From the NCBI RefSeq assembly GCF_003946335.1, contig NZ_RHNX01000004.1:62001-126000 (forward strand): DNA of 64,000 nt. The letters are read 5' to 3'. Positions 4,875-56,365 of this stretch are shown here, piece by piece. A program made the position numbers and the translations under genes. Under the pieces are notes generated by a model. The model saw nothing but the letters and a program-made list of their open reading frames with translations, had not been told where the DNA came from and made no database searches. Every line of letters begins with the position of its first letter. Position 1 is the stretch's first letter. Source of the DNA: Levilactobacillus fujinensis. Lineage in GTDB: Bacteria; Bacillota; Bacilli; Lactobacillales; Lactobacillaceae.

Positions 4875-5257
4875 AAAAAACGCCCCTTGAGACTTTTATC
4901 TCAAGAGGGCGTATCAACGCGGTGCCACCTCATGTACTCGACGGGCTCACGCCACGTCGACTCAGCGAGTTGCTTGCAACATGGCCCCGATAAATAAAAA
5001 AGTCCCCTTAGGCCCAAAAGCCTAAGAGGACGATCACATCGTGGTTCCACCTCTGATTCGTCGTTCTATCACTAAAACGACCTCAGTGAGTTGCAAGCAA
5101 CTCCAGCGATAACGGGCTACCCCGGACCATCCTACTCATTTCAAACGGTCAACTCACAGATGTGGTTCGATTAACTAAGACTGCCCGTTTCCATCAGCGG
5201 GGCTTTCTGGTAAACCTTAGCTACTCTACTCTTCTGTTCAACGTCTTTTGTTTCATT
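4875..5257 (-). promoter_or_regulatory. T-box leader with one specifier domain and two antiterminator/terminator modules
   Basis: On the minus strand, a Stem I-like domain (about 5230-5150) carries an AGAGTAGAG element and a specifier region GAACCACATC, read as CAC (His). Module 1 has a Stem III hairpin (5101-5080), a T-box AGGTGGAACCACG at 5052-5040 and a terminator at 5031-5001 with a U-run. Module 2 follows at once: a related Stem III hairpin (4980-4961), a T-box AGGTGGCACCGCG at 4930-4918 and a terminator at 4911-4875. There is no room for a second Stem I. Uncharged tRNA-His should allow read-through into the ABC importer. CAC is my reading of the specifier; an ACC (Thr) frame is less consistent with the usual spacing. 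Confidence 0.85.
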
Positions 5258-11462: not shown

Positions 11463-12785
11463 TTATTCGTCAGTTTCTTTAAAATATTGCCGAACTTCCG
11501 AAATAAAGTAGAGCGAGCCCGTTAATAGAATCAAATCATCGGCTGAAATGTTCGCCATGGCTTCCTTTAAAGCACTCGGCCAATCAGCAGCCATTGTGAC
11601 TCGTCTGTTCGATGCCACCGCATCTTCCAGCGCTTGAGGTGTCGCGGCTGTCCGTTTTCCTGGCCCTTGAAACTGTGTCACGATGATGTGTACGTTCGGC
11701 ACTTTCAGCAAGGTCTGCACCATCTTCTCATACTGCTTGTCGGCCAATACTGCCAGTACAATATAAATGTCGTGTTGCTTAAAGTGCTGCCGTAAGAGCC
11801 GAACCATTTCAACCATCGCTGGCTCGTTGTGTGCACCATCGATAGCAATCAGAGGTTCGTTCGTTAACCGTTCAAACCGACCTGGCCAGACAGTGTGCTT
11901 AAAACCCACACGAATATCGGCAATGTCATACGGCAGTTTTCGCAACTGATGATACGTGATAAATGCCGTAAGAGCTGTTGCCGCATTGTCGATTTGATAT
12001 TGCCCCAACAAATCGATTTCTAAATGATGCCAGCGTAAATCATTCCAAGCATAGTCAAAGCGTTCACCCCACCCGGATTCAGGCTGGTCCTGAACGTGGA
12101 AATCCCGGTTCAACGCGCGAACTTCGGTCTGGTTCTTCGTGGCCGTCTGGTCCATAACATCCAGTGCATCCGGCGTTAACCGGCCACAGACCACCGGTAC
12201 ATTGGGCTTAATGATACCCGCCTTTTGTGCAGCAATCTTCGGAATCGTGTCACCCAAGATTTTCATGTGATCCATGCCAATCGTAGTGATTACGGACACT
12301 GCTGGTTGAATGATGTTGGTCGAATCATACAACCCACCCAACCCAACTTCAACGATCACAATATCCACAGGATGACTGGCGAAGTAACAGAACATCAGGG
12401 CCGTATCGATTTCAAATTCCGTTGGACCCTCTTCAGCTAATTCGGCATCTAACCGTGTCACTACGGGCTGAATCCGATTGACCATGGTGACTAAATCAGC
12501 ATCACTGATTGGTTGGCCATCCGTGCTGATGCGTTCGTTAAAACGTGTAATGAACGGAGAGGTAAAGGTCCCAACTGTCTGGCCCTCAGCCATGAACAGG
12601 TCCCGTAAAAAGGCAACCGTGGACCCTTTACCATTGGTACCGGCAACGTGAATCGTATCCTTCAACTGTTCCTGCGGGTCCCCCAAGATGTGCATAAACT
12701 GCCGCATCCGGTTCAGCGTGGGCTTCTTCTTAAAGCGGTCTCTGCCGTGAATGAACTGCAGAGCCTCAGCGTAAGTTTTTACCAA
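11463..12785 (-). CDS. folC: Bifunctional folylpolyglutamate/dihydrofolate synthase
   Basis: A 440-residue Mur-ligase-family enzyme that adds glutamate to folates to retain them in the cell. The ATP-binding loop is HVAGTNGKGST (about residues 46-56). Further conserved regions are TSPFITRFNERI, EVGLGGLYDSTN and the C-terminal-domain start WPGRFE with IDGAHN. The start is TTG with SD GGGAGG. valS lies upstream across a 458-base gap, radC downstream. Nothing separates it from dihydrofolate synthase activity in the same polypeptide. Confidence 0.93.
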   Translation of the reverse strand: MVKTYAEALQFIHGRDRFKKKPTLNRMRQFMHILGDPQEQLKDTIHVAGTNGKGSTVAFLRDLFMAEGQTVGTFTSPFITRFNERISTDGQPISDADLVTMVNRIQPVVTRLDAELAEEGPTEFEIDTALMFCYFASHPVDIVIVEVGLGGLYDSTNIIQPAVSVITTIGMDHMKILGDTIPKIAAQKAGIIKPNVPVVCGRLTPDALDVMDQTATKNQTEVRALNRDFHVQDQPESGWGERFDYAWNDLRWHHLEIDLLGQYQIDNAATALTAFITYHQLRKLPYDIADIRVGFKHTVWPGRFERLTNEPLIAIDGAHNEPAMVEMVRLLRQHFKQHDIYIVLAVLADKQYEKMVQTLLKVPNVHIIVTQFQGPGKRTAATPQALEDAVASNRRVTMAADWPSALKEAMANISADDLILLTGSLYFISEVRQYFKETDE

Positions 12786-13004: not shown

Positions 13005-13169
13005 ATTGGGACATAACTCAAAAAGTTGTTCCTTTCAGAATCTAATAATTCTGAAAGGAACAACTTTTATTTACGCCACCATAATACCGAAACGTGCGCC
13101 ATAAGGCATTATTGTCCTTAATCCGATAGCAGAAATTATGCTCGCAAACTAACCGCCTTATGTCCCAAT
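13005..13169 (+). repeat. Short TIR element with covarying hairpin (copy 1)
   Basis: The element is bounded by a 12-base perfect inverted repeat, ATTGGGACATAA (13005-13016) and TTATGTCCCAAT (13158-13169). Inside is a perfect 21-bp stem (13021-13041 with 13048-13068) with a 6-base loop and flanking A and T runs, able to terminate transcription on either strand. An internal CATAAGGC (13100-13107) can pair with GCCTTATG at the right end, competing with the terminal pairing. It lies between valS and folC. A related copy is at 55135-55334. Confidence 0.85.
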
Positions 13170-13243
13170 CTAATTTTCGTTTCTCAAGGGACTAGTCACG
13201 TCACAGCACTAATCTTACTAGGCTTCACTTATATTTTTAAAGC

Positions 13244-15910
13244 TTAAAGTTGTGCTTTGATGTCAGCTAACCGTTGTTGCGTAGCTGACAGCTTCTTTTC
13301 GTTGTCCGCTTGCTTTTCTCGTTCGGCGTTGACCACGTCTTCTGGGGCGTTGGCAACGAAACGTTCGTTACCAAGCTTTTTGGTTGCCCGTTGAACTTCA
13401 GCCGTGTACTTATCAACTTCTTTGTCCAAACGCTTAACCTCATCATGAAGGTCGACCAATTCGGCTAATGGTACGGAAACCTCGGCACCCGTGATAACAC
13501 CGGTCATGGCTAACTTAGGAGCAGTTAAGTTGGCACCGATCTCCAAGTTTTTGGGATGAACAAACCGATCAATGTAGTCACGGTTATTTTCAAAGACACC
13601 TTGAAGTTGATCGTCGCTGGTCTTGATCTGCAAATCGATTGGTGTTGACATTGGCGCATTGGCCTCAACCCGGATGTTCCGGACAGCCTTGATCAAATCG
13701 ATTAGGCTAGTCATGTCGTCTTCCGCCGTGGCGTTGTCAAATTCTGGATGGTCGATTGGGTAAGCCGCTGTTACCAGTGATTGCCCGTCATGTGGCATAG
13801 CTTGCCAGATAGCTTCCGTCACGAATGGCATGATTGGGTGTAACAAGCGTAAGGTTTGGTCCAGAACGTATGCCAACAGGTCCTGCTTGTTCGCCTTAGC
13901 CGCCTCATCATCGCCCGTCAGGACTTCCTTACTCATTTCAATATACCAGTCACAGAAATCATTCCAAATGAAGTTGTACAATGCGCGACCGGCTTCACCG
14001 AATTCGAACTTGTCAAACATTTCCGTTACGTGCTTAACCGTGTTATTCAAGCGACTTAAGATCCACTTGTCGGTCAGGTCCCACTCGTCAGTAGCAGGCA
14101 CTTCTGGTTTCGTGTTTTCGCCTAAGTTCATGATAACAAATCGGCTGGCGTTCCAGATTTTGTTGATGAAGTTCCAGGCCGCATCCATCTTATCATAACT
14201 GAATCGGACATCTTGCCCCGCCGTCGAACCGGTAGATAGGAACCATCGTAGCGCATCGGCACCGTATTTGTCGATCACATCCATTGGGTCGATCCCGTTA
14301 CCGAGCGACTTGCTCATCTTCCGACCATCTTCGTCCCGCATTAAACCATGTATGAGTACGTGTTTGAACGGTTTCTTGCCAGTAAATTCGAGGCTTTGGA
14401 AAATCATTCGGGAAATCCAGAAGAAGATGATATCGTAACCAGTAACCAAGGTGTCGGTGGGGAAGTAACGTTTGTAATCGGCGCTATCTTCGTCCGGCCA
14501 ACCCATCGTCGAAAATGGCCACAGGGCACTGGAGAACCAGGTGTCCAAGACATCAGGGTCTTGTTCCCAATTTTCAATATCCTTAGGTGCTTCCTCGTTG
14601 ACGTAAACTTCGCCGGTCTTCTTGTTGTACCAGGCTGGAATCCGGTGACCCCACCAGAGTTGACGGGAAATAACCCAGTCATGGACGTTTTCCATCCATT
14701 GCGTAAAGGTATGTTCGAACCGTTCTGGCACGAAATCAACCGCATTGTCACCCGTTTGATTCTTGATGGCAGCTTCGGCAAGGGGCTTCATCTTCACAAA
14801 CCATTGCGTTGACAACCGGGCTTCGACTTGAACCCCAGTTCGTTCGGAGTGACCAACGGAGTGGACGATCGGGTCGATTTTAATCATTAACCCTTGCGCG
14901 TCTAAATCAGCGACCATGGCCTTCCGCGCATCGAAACGGTCCATGCCAGCATACTTACCGGCCTTGTCGTTCATAGAAGCATCTTCGTTCATGGTATTGA
15001 TGCGTTCGAGGTTGTGGCGATTGCCCACTAAGAAGTCATTAGGGTCGTGGGCTGGTGTAATCTTCACCATCCCGGTCCCAAAGTTAATATCGACATATTG
15101 GTCGGCAATAATCGGGATTTCACGGTCGGCTAATGGCAGGATAACCTTCTTACCAACTAAGTCCTTGTACCGATCATCGTCAGGATTAACGGCAACAGCA
15201 GTATCCCCCATCATGGTTTCTGGACGAGTCGTCGCAATTTCGATATAGTGCTTGCCGTTAAATGTATCATCCGGGTTCGCGAATGGGTACTTAACGTGGT
15301 AGAAGGCGCCCTTGTCGTCTTGGTGAATAACTTCGATATCAGATAGCGCCGTCCGTGCTTGCGGATCCCAGTTAATGATGTACTCACCACGGTAGATCAG
15401 GCCCTTCTTGTACAACGTCACGAAGACCTTTTTAACGGCATCGGATAAGCCTTTGTCCAAAGTGAACCGTTCACGGGAGTAATCCATGGACAATCCCATC
15501 TTAGCCCATTGTTTATGAATGGTTGCGGCGTATTCGTCCTTCCATTCCCAAACCTTGTCGACGAACTTTTCACGACCTAAATCATAACGCGTGATTCCTT
15601 GTTCGCGTAATCGCGCTTCGACCTTAGCTTGCGTGGCAATTCCGGCATGGTCCATCCCTGGAATCCAGAGTGTATCATAACCCTGCATCCGCTTTTGTCG
15701 AACAATCATGTCTTGTAAGGTCGTATCCCAAGCATGGCCTAAATGGAGCTTCCCGGTCACGTTTGGCGGCGGTAACACGATGGAATAAGGGGTGGCTTTC
15801 TTGTCACCGCTGGGTTTGAAAACATCTTCATCAAGCCAAGTTTGATAACGACCAGCTTCAACGGCGGTCGGATCGTACTTGGTTGGCATATCGATTTGCT
15901 TATCAGCCAT
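13244..15910 (-). CDS. valS: Valyl-tRNA synthetase
   Basis: An 888-residue class I synthetase charging tRNA-Val, with post-transfer editing. HIGH motif: [34 protein letters not shown]. The CP1 editing domain includes [17 protein letters not shown], and a C-terminal coiled coil spans about the last 60 residues. Full length for the family. It follows a Val T-box leader and has SD AAGG. Confidence 0.98.
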
Positions 15911-15957: not shown

Positions 15958-16192
15958 ACAAAAAATCTTCATCCTAAAGATTAGGACGAAGATTTCTTCG
16001 CGGTACCACCTAAATTGGGCGTTCATGCCCCACTTAACTTCTTTGTTAACGGAGAGTGCTCCGGTCCGGACTTACTACTGGTTCAGTCCGTCAGCTCGCA
16101 AGCTACTTTCACGTTAGTCTACCCACCGGTTTCCAGCAATTCCGGCTCTCTATGCGGTTTAACTAACACTACTCACTTGTTCAACGCCACTT
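15958..16192 (-). promoter_or_regulatory. Valine T-box riboswitch leader of valS
   Basis: On the minus strand a Stem I domain contains a GAGAGCCGG element and a specifier region GTGAAAGTAGC with Val codon GTA. The T-box AGGTGGTACCGCG is at 16011-15999, and a terminator (AGAAATCTTCGTCC / GGATGAAGATTTTTT, 15998-15958) precedes valS by about 50 bases. Uncharged tRNA-Val should stabilise the antiterminator. Unlike the leader at 4875-5257, this has a single antiterminator module. Confidence 0.9.
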
Positions 16193-16198
16193 TCACAT

Positions 16199-31879: not shown

Positions 31880-32113
31880 GTGGTTCTAAGGTGTACGCGT
31901 TGTCTCACTACAAGTTGCCGAACAAGTAATTCTTAAACGGGAACGCCTAACGATATCGTAGCTGACATGCCTTTTCACTTGGAAGTCAAAAACTTTATCA
32001 GACGCTCCCCCCTGCATTGTCATCGCGGGTCAACATGACTGGACAATTAACGGCACCACTTAGATCAACCAAAGCCTTGTGCTTTGAAGGCCATTCCATT
32101 GAATGGCCTTTTT
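31880..32113 (+). ncRNA. ssrS: 6S RNA
   Basis: A non-coding transcript of about 190-230 bases with its own promoter and terminator, directly downstream of rarA, the usual site of 6S RNA in many Firmicutes. The 5' end GGTT-CTAAG-GTG pairs with CACC-A-CTTAG-GAT-AACC near 32054-32070, making the long closing stem typical of 6S RNA, with a large irregular interior. A perfect terminator hairpin AAGGCCATTC/GAATGGCCTT with T-run sits at 32087-32113. 6S RNA mimics an open promoter and sequesters the sigma-A holoenzyme. The identity rests on position and architecture, not a database match. Confidence 0.8.
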
Positions 32114-34659: not shown

Positions 34660-34850
34660 CGTGGGACGACCTGGGAGACGCCTGATTTTGGCGACTTTCA
34701 GGCGAGCTGGAAGCCCGTCCTTTGGCTGGAAGCGTTCCCCACAGCAAGCGGAATCGCTGGCAGCCGGAGTGCGGCTGTTTTCGCTAATTTAGCCGTGATA
34801 ATGCCTACTGTCGCAAGAGTAACATGAACATTTTGGCTTTCAACCTTTAG
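34660..34850 (+). repeat. MITE-like dispersed repeat (copy B)
   Basis: From GGGACGACCTGGGAGACG to TTTCAACCTTTAG it aligns with copies A, C and E. It keeps a perfect CAGCCG-GAGTG-CGGCTG hairpin (34761-34777) and the right terminal repeat TGGCTTTCAACCT. The left terminal repeat is missing. Confidence 0.8.
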
Positions 34851-34939
34851 CTGATAATCAAATAATCAAAGCCCAGGATTATTCGGTTATCAACCTTAAT
34901 GCTCGCCAGCTAATCGCCCTCCGTCCCACTCTCACAGTT

Positions 34940-53500: not shown

Positions 53501-54742
53501 CTAGGGTAAGGCATTTAACGGGTGAGCACGCGTTAATTCATGGACCCGCTGCCGGACATCGACTAAGACTTGTTCGTCGTCAGGGTGCGTAATCGTCTGG
53601 ACAATCAGACGCGCCACTTCGCGAGATTCATCAGCGTTAAAGCCCCGAGTGGTGATGGCTGGCGTCCCAATTCGGATACCAGATGTCTTGAATGGGCTCA
53701 ATTTTTCATTGGGAATGGCTTCCTTGTTGGTGGTAATCATGACGCTGTCCAGCAAGTCCTGAGCCTGCTTCCCATTAAGCGTCGTTGCCGATAAATCAAG
53801 TGTCATCAAGTGATTATCCGTACCGCCGGAAATAACACGTACGCCTGGTAGCTTCATGAACTCATCGGCCATCGCATGGGCATTCACGATAATCTGCTTG
53901 GCGTAATCTTTAAATTCCGGTTGCAGGTCTTCAAAAAATGCCGCCGCTTTTCCAGCAATCACGTGTTCCAACGGTCCGCCCTGTGTTCCTGGGAATACCG
54001 CCGAATTGATGCGTTTGGCGTTCTCTTCTTGAGAGAGGATCAGGCCGCCTCGTGGGCCCCGCAACGTCTTATGCGTTGTCGTGGTGACCACATCCGCAAT
54101 TCCCACTGGACTAGGATGTAGTCCGGTGGCAACTAGCCCCGCAATATGGGCCATATCAACCATCAGGTAGGCACCCACTTCATCCGCGATTTCACGGAAG
54201 GCATTCCAGTCAATAAACCGTGAGTACGCAGAAGCCCCGGCAACAATCATCTTCGGCTTCACCTTCTGTGCCACTTCTCGAATCATGTCGTAGTCCAGGA
54301 GTTCTGTGTCTGGATTCAATGCATAGCTATAGGCATTGTAGATCTTACCAGAGAAATTAACCTTGGCACCGTGAGTTAGATGTCCTCCAGCATCGAGGCC
54401 CATCCCCAGAATCGTATCGCCAGGCTTCAAGAATGCCGCATAGACGGCCTGATTGGCTTGCGACCCGGAGTGGGGTTGGACGTTCGCATATTCGGCGTGA
54501 AACAGCTCCTTTGCCCGGTCAATGGCAAGCTGTTCAACCACGTCAATGTACTGGGTACCTCCGTAGTACCGTTTGCCCGGATAGCCTTCAGCATACTTAT
54601 TCGTCAATACGGACCCTTGTGCTGTCCGTACAGCTTCACTCACAATGTTTTCGGAAGCAATCAATTCAATCGTATTTTCTTGTCGTTGCTCTTCCTTCGC
54701 AATGGCGCCCCATAAAGCTGGATCCTTTTCTTTAAAATTCAT
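53501..54742 (-). CDS. glyA: Serine hydroxymethyltransferase
   Basis: A 413-residue PLP enzyme interconverting serine and glycine with tetrahydrofolate. The PLP lysine is Lys225 in [27 protein letters not shown] and [12 protein letters not shown] are intact. It provides one-carbon units and glycine. SD AGGAGGG. Separated from tsaC by about 600 bases containing two repeat elements. Confidence 0.97.
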
Positions 54743-55134: not shown

Positions 55135-55334
55135 TGGGACATCACTCAAAAAGTTGCGCCTTTCAGAATTGTTGGATTCTGAAAGGCGCAACCTTTATTT
55201 ACACCATTATGGTGGCAAAACGTGCATCATAAGGGCAGTTTGTTGCGCTTAACCCGATAGTAAAAGTTATGCCAGAATCAGGTACAATCCCTGCTATCAC
55301 ATTAATGCTCGCAAACTAACCGCCTTATGTCCCA
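55135..55334 (+). repeat. Short TIR element with covarying hairpin (copy 2)
   Basis: The ends are TGGGACATCA (55135-55144) and TTATGTCCCA (55325-55334). It has a perfect 17-bp stem, 55153-55169 with 55176-55192, around a 6-base loop. Compared with copy 1 (13005-13169), two stem base pairs differ and both partners have changed. It carries an extra segment of about 37 bases (after 55270) flanked by similar TTATG/TAATG. It lies between tsaC and glyA, facing the same way relative to the genes as copy 1. Confidence 0.85.
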
Positions 55335-55348
55335 CTCTGCCAATTTAT

Positions 55349-56365
55349 TTACTTTTCAAAATGTTGCTGCCCGGCGGATTTATTCAACCGGTTCATATAA
55401 GCCGCACCTAGTCCCTTAGCTGCAAACCCCTGCGCAAGGATCCCCGTCACGGGTGACTCCAGATCAAAGTGACGCAGACCCGCGAACAAGCGATGACTAG
55501 CACTAGTCATGTCAGCACCCAGTGAGAAAGCTTCTGTATTTACTGGTAACTGGTCAGCCACTAGAATATGGTCTAGCGCCATGACCCCAATCGTGCCATC
55601 CTGCTGTGCTGCCCACGCTAGTGCTGCTGGCCAGTCGGTCTCATCGTCAACAATAGTGACCTGTGCATTAGGCGCATAATGTTTGTACTTCATTCCCGGA
55701 GCCTTAGGAATCTCACCCTTGCCAACCTTGTGATGGTTCGATTGAACCGTCCCAATCACCGCTTCCAATTGTTCCTCGGTCACACCACCTGGACGCAAGA
55801 TTGTTGGAATCTCAGTCGACATATCAAGAACAGTCGATTCAACGCCAACCTGAGTTGGTCCGTCATCCAAGATACCAGCAATTTTGCCATTCAAATCATG
55901 ATAGACGTGCTTGGCCAAGGTCGGACTTGGTTTCCCCGACGTATTCGCCGAGGGACCAACCAACGGTACACCGGCAGCTTTGATCAAGTCCAAGGTCACT
56001 TGGTTATCAGGATTACGAAAAGCGGCCGTGTTCAACCCCCCAGTGACAGCTTTAGACAATTTCCCGGGCTGTAAGGTGAAAATCAACGTTAAGGGCCCCG
56101 GCCAGAACGCCTTGATTAGTGCCTCAGCCTTATCGGACAGTGGCTGCGCATATTGCTTGACCGTGTCTTCACCCGTGACGTGAACGATCAATGGGTTGTC
56201 ACTCGGACGGCCCTTAGCCATATACACCTGCTTAACGGCCTGTTCGTTGGTTGCGTCGGCGCCTAAGCCATACACGGTCTCGGTAGGGAAAGCCACCAAC
56301 TGACCCGCACGAATAGCGGCGGCCGCTTCACCAATTTCATTTGGTTGAAAAATTTTCGTTTCCAT
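55349..56365 (-). CDS. L-threonylcarbamoyladenylate synthase (Sua5/YwlC type)
   Basis: A 338-residue protein that makes threonylcarbamoyl-AMP for tRNA t6A37. It has an N-terminal YrdC domain (about 1-205, with PTETVYGLGADATNEQAVKQVYMAKGRPSDNPLIVHV in parts, and SANTSGKPSPT) and a C-terminal Sua5 domain, making it the long form. It lies 20 bases after prmC, the Bacillus order prfA-prmC-ywlC. Confidence 0.94.
   Translation of the reverse strand: METKIFQPNEIGEAAAAIRAGQLVAFPTETVYGLGADATNEQAVKQVYMAKGRPSDNPLIVHVTGEDTVKQYAQPLSDKAEALIKAFWPGPLTLIFTLQPGKLSKAVTGGLNTAAFRNPDNQVTLDLIKAAGVPLVGPSANTSGKPSPTLAKHVYHDLNGKIAGILDDGPTQVGVESTVLDMSTEIPTILRPGGVTEEQLEAVIGTVQSNHHKVGKGEIPKAPGMKYKHYAPNAQVTIVDDETDWPAALAWAAQQDGTIGVMALDHILVADQLPVNTEAFSLGADMTSASHRLFAGLRHFDLESPVTGILAQGFAAKGLGAAYMNRLNKSAGQQHFEK

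Follow-up and report, generated by a model that had tools for sequence, protein, structure and literature searches.

A repeated element of about 200 bp, found in the window (the whole 64,000-nucleotide stretch of DNA that was analysed, from a Levilactobacillus genome of 3.0 Mb in 103 contigs), is probably a non-autonomous, MITE-like mobile element that replaces transcription terminators and carries a two-way terminator of its own. At the level of sequence, this reading draws on the wide spread of the element, the structural constraint on its core, its placement 3' of genes, the terminator found in a relative where the element now sits, the absence of a target duplication, and ends similar to those of IS1182. 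The original prediction offered a structured RNA or a mobile terminator as alternatives; the structured element and the mobile terminator both stand and seem to be joined in one, the core of which may act as DNA or as RNA. If so, the element links covarying structured nucleic acid, miniature mobile elements and transcription terminators, which are usually treated apart, and provides natural before-and-after pairs for the study of stem-loop-replacing transposition.

Both copies originally noticed in the window exist (Table 1), with TGGGACAT...ATGTCCCA ends, the hairpin arms that had been named (GTTGTTCC/GGAACAAC in copy 1 and GTTGCGCC/GGCGCAAC in copy 2), and CTCGCAAACTAACCGCCTTATG close to the right end. 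Copy 1 lies between valS (13244-15910, minus strand) and folC (11463-12785, minus strand), 76 nt past the valS stop codon, and lacks 38-39 bp of internal sequence in comparison with full copies. Copy 2 begins 14 nt past the gene for an L-threonylcarbamoyladenylate synthase (55349-56365, minus strand), counted from its stop codon, the next gene downstream being that for serine hydroxymethyltransferase (53501-54742, minus strand). Their folds are far beyond chance, with z scores of -8.8 for copy 1 and -7.2 for copy 2 (0 of 200 shuffles for each). The idea of a two-copy element, on the other hand, had to be given up, as BLAST with copy 1 as the query returned 89 rows in this genome, from which 40 distinct places were taken as a working set, and a covariance model of the core gave 106 matches that correspond to 80 distinct places (150 candidates scored; a palindromic place may be matched on each of its strands), 55 of them at 75 bits or above; a third copy lies even inside the window. 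Exact 8-bp ends are present on both sides at 11 places in the genome.

Table 1. Copies of the element and their parts in the window, with the method by which each was located
Feature	Position	Strand	Located by
Copy 1 (161 bp), with an internal deletion	13007..13167	-	Original prediction, confirmed
Terminator hairpin of copy 1, including A and T tracts	13020..13068	.	Terminator scan (minus strand, 13066-13023)
Structured core of copy 1, degenerate through internal deletion	13084..13172	-	Covariance model, 47.7 bits, E 1.3e-11
Third core copy, truncated, missed in the original prediction	34814..34933	-	Covariance model, 40.3 bits, E 2.1e-9
Copy 2 (200 bp), of full length	55135..55334	-	Original prediction, confirmed
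Terminator hairpin of copy 2, including A and T tracts	55148..55196	.	Terminator scan (plus strand, 55153-55192)
Structured core of copy 2	55212..55339	-	Covariance model, 106.7 bits, E 5.5e-29

On the minus strand, the element starts with the end GAGNGTGGGACANAA, continues with a hairpin core of about 125 nt that has invariant loop motifs and then with a terminator hairpin, and finishes, in this species, with an inverted copy of the end, the terminal inverted repeats being GAGNGTGGGACANAA / TTNTGTCNCANNCTC. Full copies typically measure 199-200 bp from TGGGACA to TGTCCCA, and in many of them the ends are extended outwards by GAGAG/CTCTC. The core, a 125-nt inverted repeat that runs from the GAGNGTGGGACA end to CACGTTTC and is common to the relatives in the genus, is the region that had been described only as lying outside the hairpin. 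The hairpin noticed at that time sits downstream of the core, is flanked by A and T tracts and looks like an intrinsic terminator, its stem containing G+C and leading into a run of T at the end of a gene; it is a predicted terminator in both window copies. Other species have, by eye, a different terminator-like hairpin at the equivalent position. Since an inverted copy of the left end lies past the terminator, the left end has two possible partners, the inner repeat, with which it closes the core, and the distal end. The proposed competition between the inner CATAAGG and the left end for pairing with CCTTATG is indeed real, and in their minimum-energy folds both window copies have the two ends paired with each other. 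Another, longer intergenic repeat (...GGCAGCCGGAGTGCGG... / ...CCTCCGGCTC...) was seen by eye at 34665-34835 of the window; it adjoins several elements (L046, L025) as well as gene ends in several species, where it follows stop codons (L202, L218, L235-L237, L245).

Evidence for the replacement of terminators comes from the comparison with close relatives, among which L. andaensis, L. koreensis, and L. enshiensis gave the nearest hits with the serine hydroxymethyltransferase protein. In L. andaensis (1.6 Mb compared), the two flanks of 14 of our 40 copies align side by side, and 12 of these 14 comparable gaps hold a terminator scoring at least 13.5, against 23 of 400 random 180-nt L. andaensis segments, a difference that is partly one of base rate, as the test gaps lie at gene ends and reach about 320 nt in length. 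The terminator scan missed L025, which fits by eye only, and L048 does not fit terminator replacement. In our genome, the same scan found the flanks to be terminator-free at 13 of the 14 sites, the exception being L046, which has a variant of its own element's terminator there. Junction matches of at least 12 of 14 nt, for which the chance count was 0 of 400, were found on the left at L004, L010, L014 and L038 (3, 6, 2 and 0 nt from the L. andaensis stem base, respectively) and on the right at L004 and L006 (-2 and -1 nt), whereas weaker matches, such as those of 10 of 14 nt seen at L042 and L049 (46 of 400), are no better or hardly better than chance. The element thus begins or ends within 6 nt of the stem base at five sites with firm junctions, all against one relative species, in agreement with the stem-loop replacement without duplication published for IS1272. 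Outer A and T tracts are common to the filled and the L. andaensis sites, as at L004. A target-site duplication, such as a 3-bp ANT site, was dropped as an idea, since exact repeats in 29 copies reach at most 3 nt with nothing consistent among them. Complementary remnants of a stem in the flanks were not above shuffled pairs (p 0.37 to 0.78).

The two sites in the window were also followed individually. Where copy 2 lies, the three nearest relatives (L. andaensis, which is G002, G018 and G041) have, by eye, a plain terminator immediately behind the corresponding stop codon, and 26 of 30 loci of the genus are without a core match. Core matches are present at this site in the more distant relatives G003 (122.3 bits, in the other orientation), G019 (53.7 bits) and G047 (28.9 bits). 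We read this as the repeated use of one site by different copies, even though these three matches may instead reflect an old copy that was later lost in the nearest species. At the valS site, a core match beside the stop codon was found in our genome only among 30 loci, and the distance of 76 nt between that stop and copy 1 speaks to some degree against terminator replacement there.

The core was analysed in two alignments. The first (A1) was limited to the genus and contained 63 copies, which were what was left of 90 core copies after those more than 95% alike had been dropped (64 copies) and the internally deleted L014 had been omitted. In this alignment, RNAalifold predicts 40 pairs, 27 of which have double changes, and 96.4% of the cells pair; the covariation score was 0.468 compared to 0.181 for shuffled alignments (0 of 500), and slid partners gave no more than 0.103. 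The second alignment (A2) comprised 50 matches at E <=1e-13 out of 48 chosen loci, 44 of the 50 being from other genera, and in it 36 of the 40 pairs had double changes with a score of 0.830 compared to 0.196 when shuffled, although its pair counts lean towards structure because the alignment was fitted to the model. The stems differ between genera, and the motifs around GAGCAUUAA, UUAAGCGGA, CUGCC and CACGUUUC are largely kept. By these patterns, the core is under structural constraint.

As to how far the element extends, DNA searches gave matches in 23 of the 24 genomes of the genus that were searched, our own included, and in 1 of 16 outside the genus, at E 9e-4. The covariance model R1 had matches in 184 of 397 genomes of the family (22 of 40 genera) and in 74 of 395 genomes of the order (26 of 80 genera), with 45 of these 74 outside the family at E values from 4e-4 to 5e-17; both searches stayed within the order Lactobacillales and scored 8 candidates per genome under strict filters. 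The same core plan is recognisable, with lower scores, in other Lactobacillales families, as seen in genomes selected for an earlier match. In 16 chosen genomes from 15 genera, R1 gave 1 to 111 matches per genome, these genomes having been picked for earlier matches and a palindromic place being able to enter these counts of model matches twice, once for each strand. The search of related genomes with a covariance model that the original prediction proposed has brought many more copies and further covariation in the core. Tandem arrays of the core, with 3 to 5 units spaced about 122-136 bp, were seen at G549:C1:263414-264031 and 3011030-3011397, and in L301 at 1501-1896. A known RNA family is excluded at the gathering score of Rfam 15, which the element did not reach (three matches in the whole window, none on the element), and a search of 15 element loci with E up to 5 returned sub-threshold matches of unrelated families only. 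The Rfam matches in the window are a T-box upstream of valS (15979-16193, minus strand), a second T-box (5023-5250, minus strand) and a 6S RNA (31880-32070, plus strand).

Placement relative to genes was assessed with simple ORF calls in 114 copies, of which 8 lie inside ORFs, 6 at edges, and 100 could be classified; short, multi-copy, mostly intergenic, and bounded by terminal inverted repeats, the element has the features of a MITE. More than half of the classifiable copies (59 of 100) start within 30 nt past a stop codon on the same strand. A co-oriented upstream gene was present for 20 of 24 classifiable copies in our genome (18 of the 20 within 30 nt of the stop, median 15.5), 39 of 54 in the genus set (28 of 39, median 13) and 15 of 22 in other genera (13 of 15, median 9). 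L. andaensis has 36 core places in the 1.6 Mb, with 15 convergent sites, 11 and 7 tandem sites in the two orientations, 1 divergent site, 1 inside an ORF call and 1 at an edge. Convergent sites are enriched (15 of 34 elements against 145 of 753 intergenic gaps, p 0.0015) and divergent sites depleted (1 of 34 against 146 of 753, p 0.012). Placement at random relative to gene ends, which the original prediction had named as one of several findings that would together speak against it, is not what was observed, as the copies are mostly just 3' of genes. The orientation of the element at tandem sites shows no clear bias, with 3 versus 4 in our genome, 17 versus 12 in the genus, 11 versus 7 in L. 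andaensis, and 5 versus 6 in other genera, which fits a two-way terminator and is mildly against a purely cis-acting RNA role.

The proximity to stop codons, together with an RNA-like pattern in which stems are replaced between genera and the motifs near GAGCAUUAA, UUAAGCGGA and CACGUUUC are kept, would also agree with a functional cis-acting 3' UTR RNA or a small-RNA family, the core of which would be kept for a role in the transcript, such as mRNA stability or protein binding, and the copies of which would have spread with it. We regard this explanation as unlikely in view not only of the lack of a clear orientation bias at tandem sites, but also of the very uneven numbers of model matches in the 16 chosen genomes, of the 213 of 397 family genomes in which none was found with 8 candidates scored per genome and strict filters, and of the site of copy 2, where 26 of the 30 genus loci show no match to the core.

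The terminator hairpin tells a different story from the core. It could be read in 38 of the 40 copies of our genome and has perfectly matching 16-bp inner arms in only 22 of these 38, so that the hairpin is not always perfect as had been thought. Its 10-nt loop lies one way in 21 copies and the other way in 17, both loop types being found both ways. Across 21 copies, placed in a tree by the remaining sequence of the element, there are 6 orientation changes compared to a mean of 7.0 for shuffled orientations (29.5% of shuffles have 6 or fewer); hence no tree signal was seen for orientation in these 21 copies, the changes being scattered as at random in a tree of short, similar sequences with low resolution. 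Template switching has been reported to invert loops and fix stems (PMC8794818), and such switching, or the flipping of a hairpin, can copy one arm onto the other without selection, so that paired changes would be expected here without selection. This alternative, absent from the original prediction, can explain the paired change between the two window copies, which had been put forward as direct evidence of selection on the fold and, with the loop in both orientations, is weak evidence for it. The study by Monttinen and Loytynoja (2022, PMC8794818) describes inverted loops together with multi-base compensatory changes of hairpins, as seen here, although complete loop inversions are given there as very rare in rRNA, whereas both orientations are common in this element.

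One could go further and propose that the element is a mobile or duplicated intrinsic terminator only, with the core as baggage that stays paired because template switching and gene conversion act between the arms of the palindrome, an explanation that agrees with the scattering of both loop orientations over the tree and with the reported effects of template switching on loops and stems (PMC8794818). We find it improbable, however, because unpaired, non-complementary motifs have stayed at fixed places in the core from genus to genus even as its stems changed, and copying from arm to arm would be expected to erase such asymmetries. With the asymmetric bulges of the core surviving, the argument made for the terminator hairpin does not carry over to it, and the stronger evidence of constraint lies in the core hairpin. 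Within one element, then, perfect compensatory changes in the terminator hairpin need not mean selection on an RNA, and the covariation of the neighbouring core does point to constraint.

With regard to how a mobile, terminator-replacing element could move, no transposase gene was seen inside the 200 bp. IS1182-family transposases or fragments of them were found in 19 of 35 genomes of the genus at E 1e-3, 3 of them above the curated cut-off, and the ends of the IS1182 loci of the genus are of the type GAGNCTGNGACANAAGTC, close to the ends of the element. All of 10 such loci match the right end of the element at 12-15 of 18 positions on at least one side (shuffled means 10.2-11.0), none being identical; this similarity is short, with shuffled maxima often at 13 and singly at 14-15, several of the 10 loci are near-copies of each other, and similarity on both sides within 700 nt is limited to 3 of the 10 (L131, L132, L138). 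L138 (G041:C34) has, by eye, an IS1182-family derivative at about 1310-2420 with the ends GAGGCTGTGACATAA / TTATGTCACAGCCTC, which sits between two tail-to-tail remnants of the element, where one would expect the terminator hairpin. An IS1182-type transposase of our own genome was dropped as the mover, as no full-length one was found there with PF13751 and the two matches with NF033551 were weak and partial. A REP/ERIC-like element moved by other means, for instance by a Y1/RAYT-type transposase acting on single-strand hairpins, would share the imperfect palindrome with conserved bulges, the high copy number, the extragenic position 3' of genes and the lack of a target duplication, but the IS1182-like inverted end repeats and the loss of the old stem-loop fit IS1182 better, and we give this origin little credit.

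We propose that the element would be moved in trans by an IS1182-type transposase that replaces stem-loops in the manner suggested for IS1272, which we take to be a member of the IS1182 family. Wan et al. (2017, PMC5678879) report that IS1272 replaces target inverted repeats without duplication; it also has terminal inverted repeats, as here, whereas our element is without a transposase gene and has a terminator of its own and a conserved hairpin core. The terminator hairpin at the target would be removed and its A and T tracts left behind, and the insertion would be tolerated because the two-way terminator of the element restores termination. The conserved shape of the core may then be a substrate or recognition structure for mobility, as a cruciform or single-strand DNA, or as RNA. 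Mobilisation in trans, taken as a step by itself, is one that we favour by a small degree, as the element has no transposase gene, our genome has no full IS1182, and the mover is deduced from relatives. A bolder version, in which we place less trust and which we put forward tentatively, is that of an ancient superfamily that extends over the whole order, its core kept by shape and not by sequence since the transposition machinery reads the folded hairpin, and that replaces terminators across the Lactobacillales with dozens of copies per genome and about 80 places in this one. Where a genome has dozens of copies, the element may have rewritten many of the gene ends by its insertion.

Among known systems, the closest kind is probably that of the Enterococcus faecalis repeats (EFAR), reportedly described by Venditti et al. 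in 2007 as miniature insertion sequences of about 170 bp with two independent stem-loops, the empty sites of which are said to be stem-loops mostly deleted upon integration. Two adjacent stem-loops and a stem-loop target are also seen in our element; in comparison with EFAR as described, it occurs in Lactobacillaceae and other families of the Lactobacillales, has a defined covarying core, and replaces stem-loops that are terminator-like and at gene ends. The Efa-1 family of E. faecalis (163 bp, 65 copies) is similar to our element in size, in its predicted pair of adjacent stem-loops, and in being of the intergenic type, but belongs to one species, and neither an insertion mechanism nor terminator replacement is given for it in the available part of the text (Cozzuto et al., 2008, PMC2267715), where Lac-1 of Lactobacillus johnsonii is placed within coding regions. 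SPRITE, RUP, and BOX of Streptococcus pneumoniae are small non-coding mobile repeats, with SPRITE being terminator-like; they are likened here by description alone, and terminator replacement is not mentioned in the part of that source available (PMC10969869). A description of this element in lactobacilli was not found in the literature searched, a weak negative given that subscription papers were mostly outside reach. If EFAR and Efa-1 belong to the same superfamily, the kind is known, and what is new is its reach across the Lactobacillales, the covarying core, the fact that Rfam lacks it, the likeness of the replaced stem-loops to terminators, and the presence of the loop in two orientations.

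Plasmids were searched as well. A search with the L. brevis copy L113 gave no match, and one with L418, an element from another Lactobacillales genome, matched 110 records, 107 from Enterococcus and 3 from Lactococcus, with no E. faecalis record among the matches listed (15 and 40 of the 110). Of these 110 records, 85 are predicted to be conjugative. Among the matches listed, the related stretches, of which NZ_CP027401.1:157007-157124 is an example, cover at most 63% of the query and have no annotated feature beneath them.
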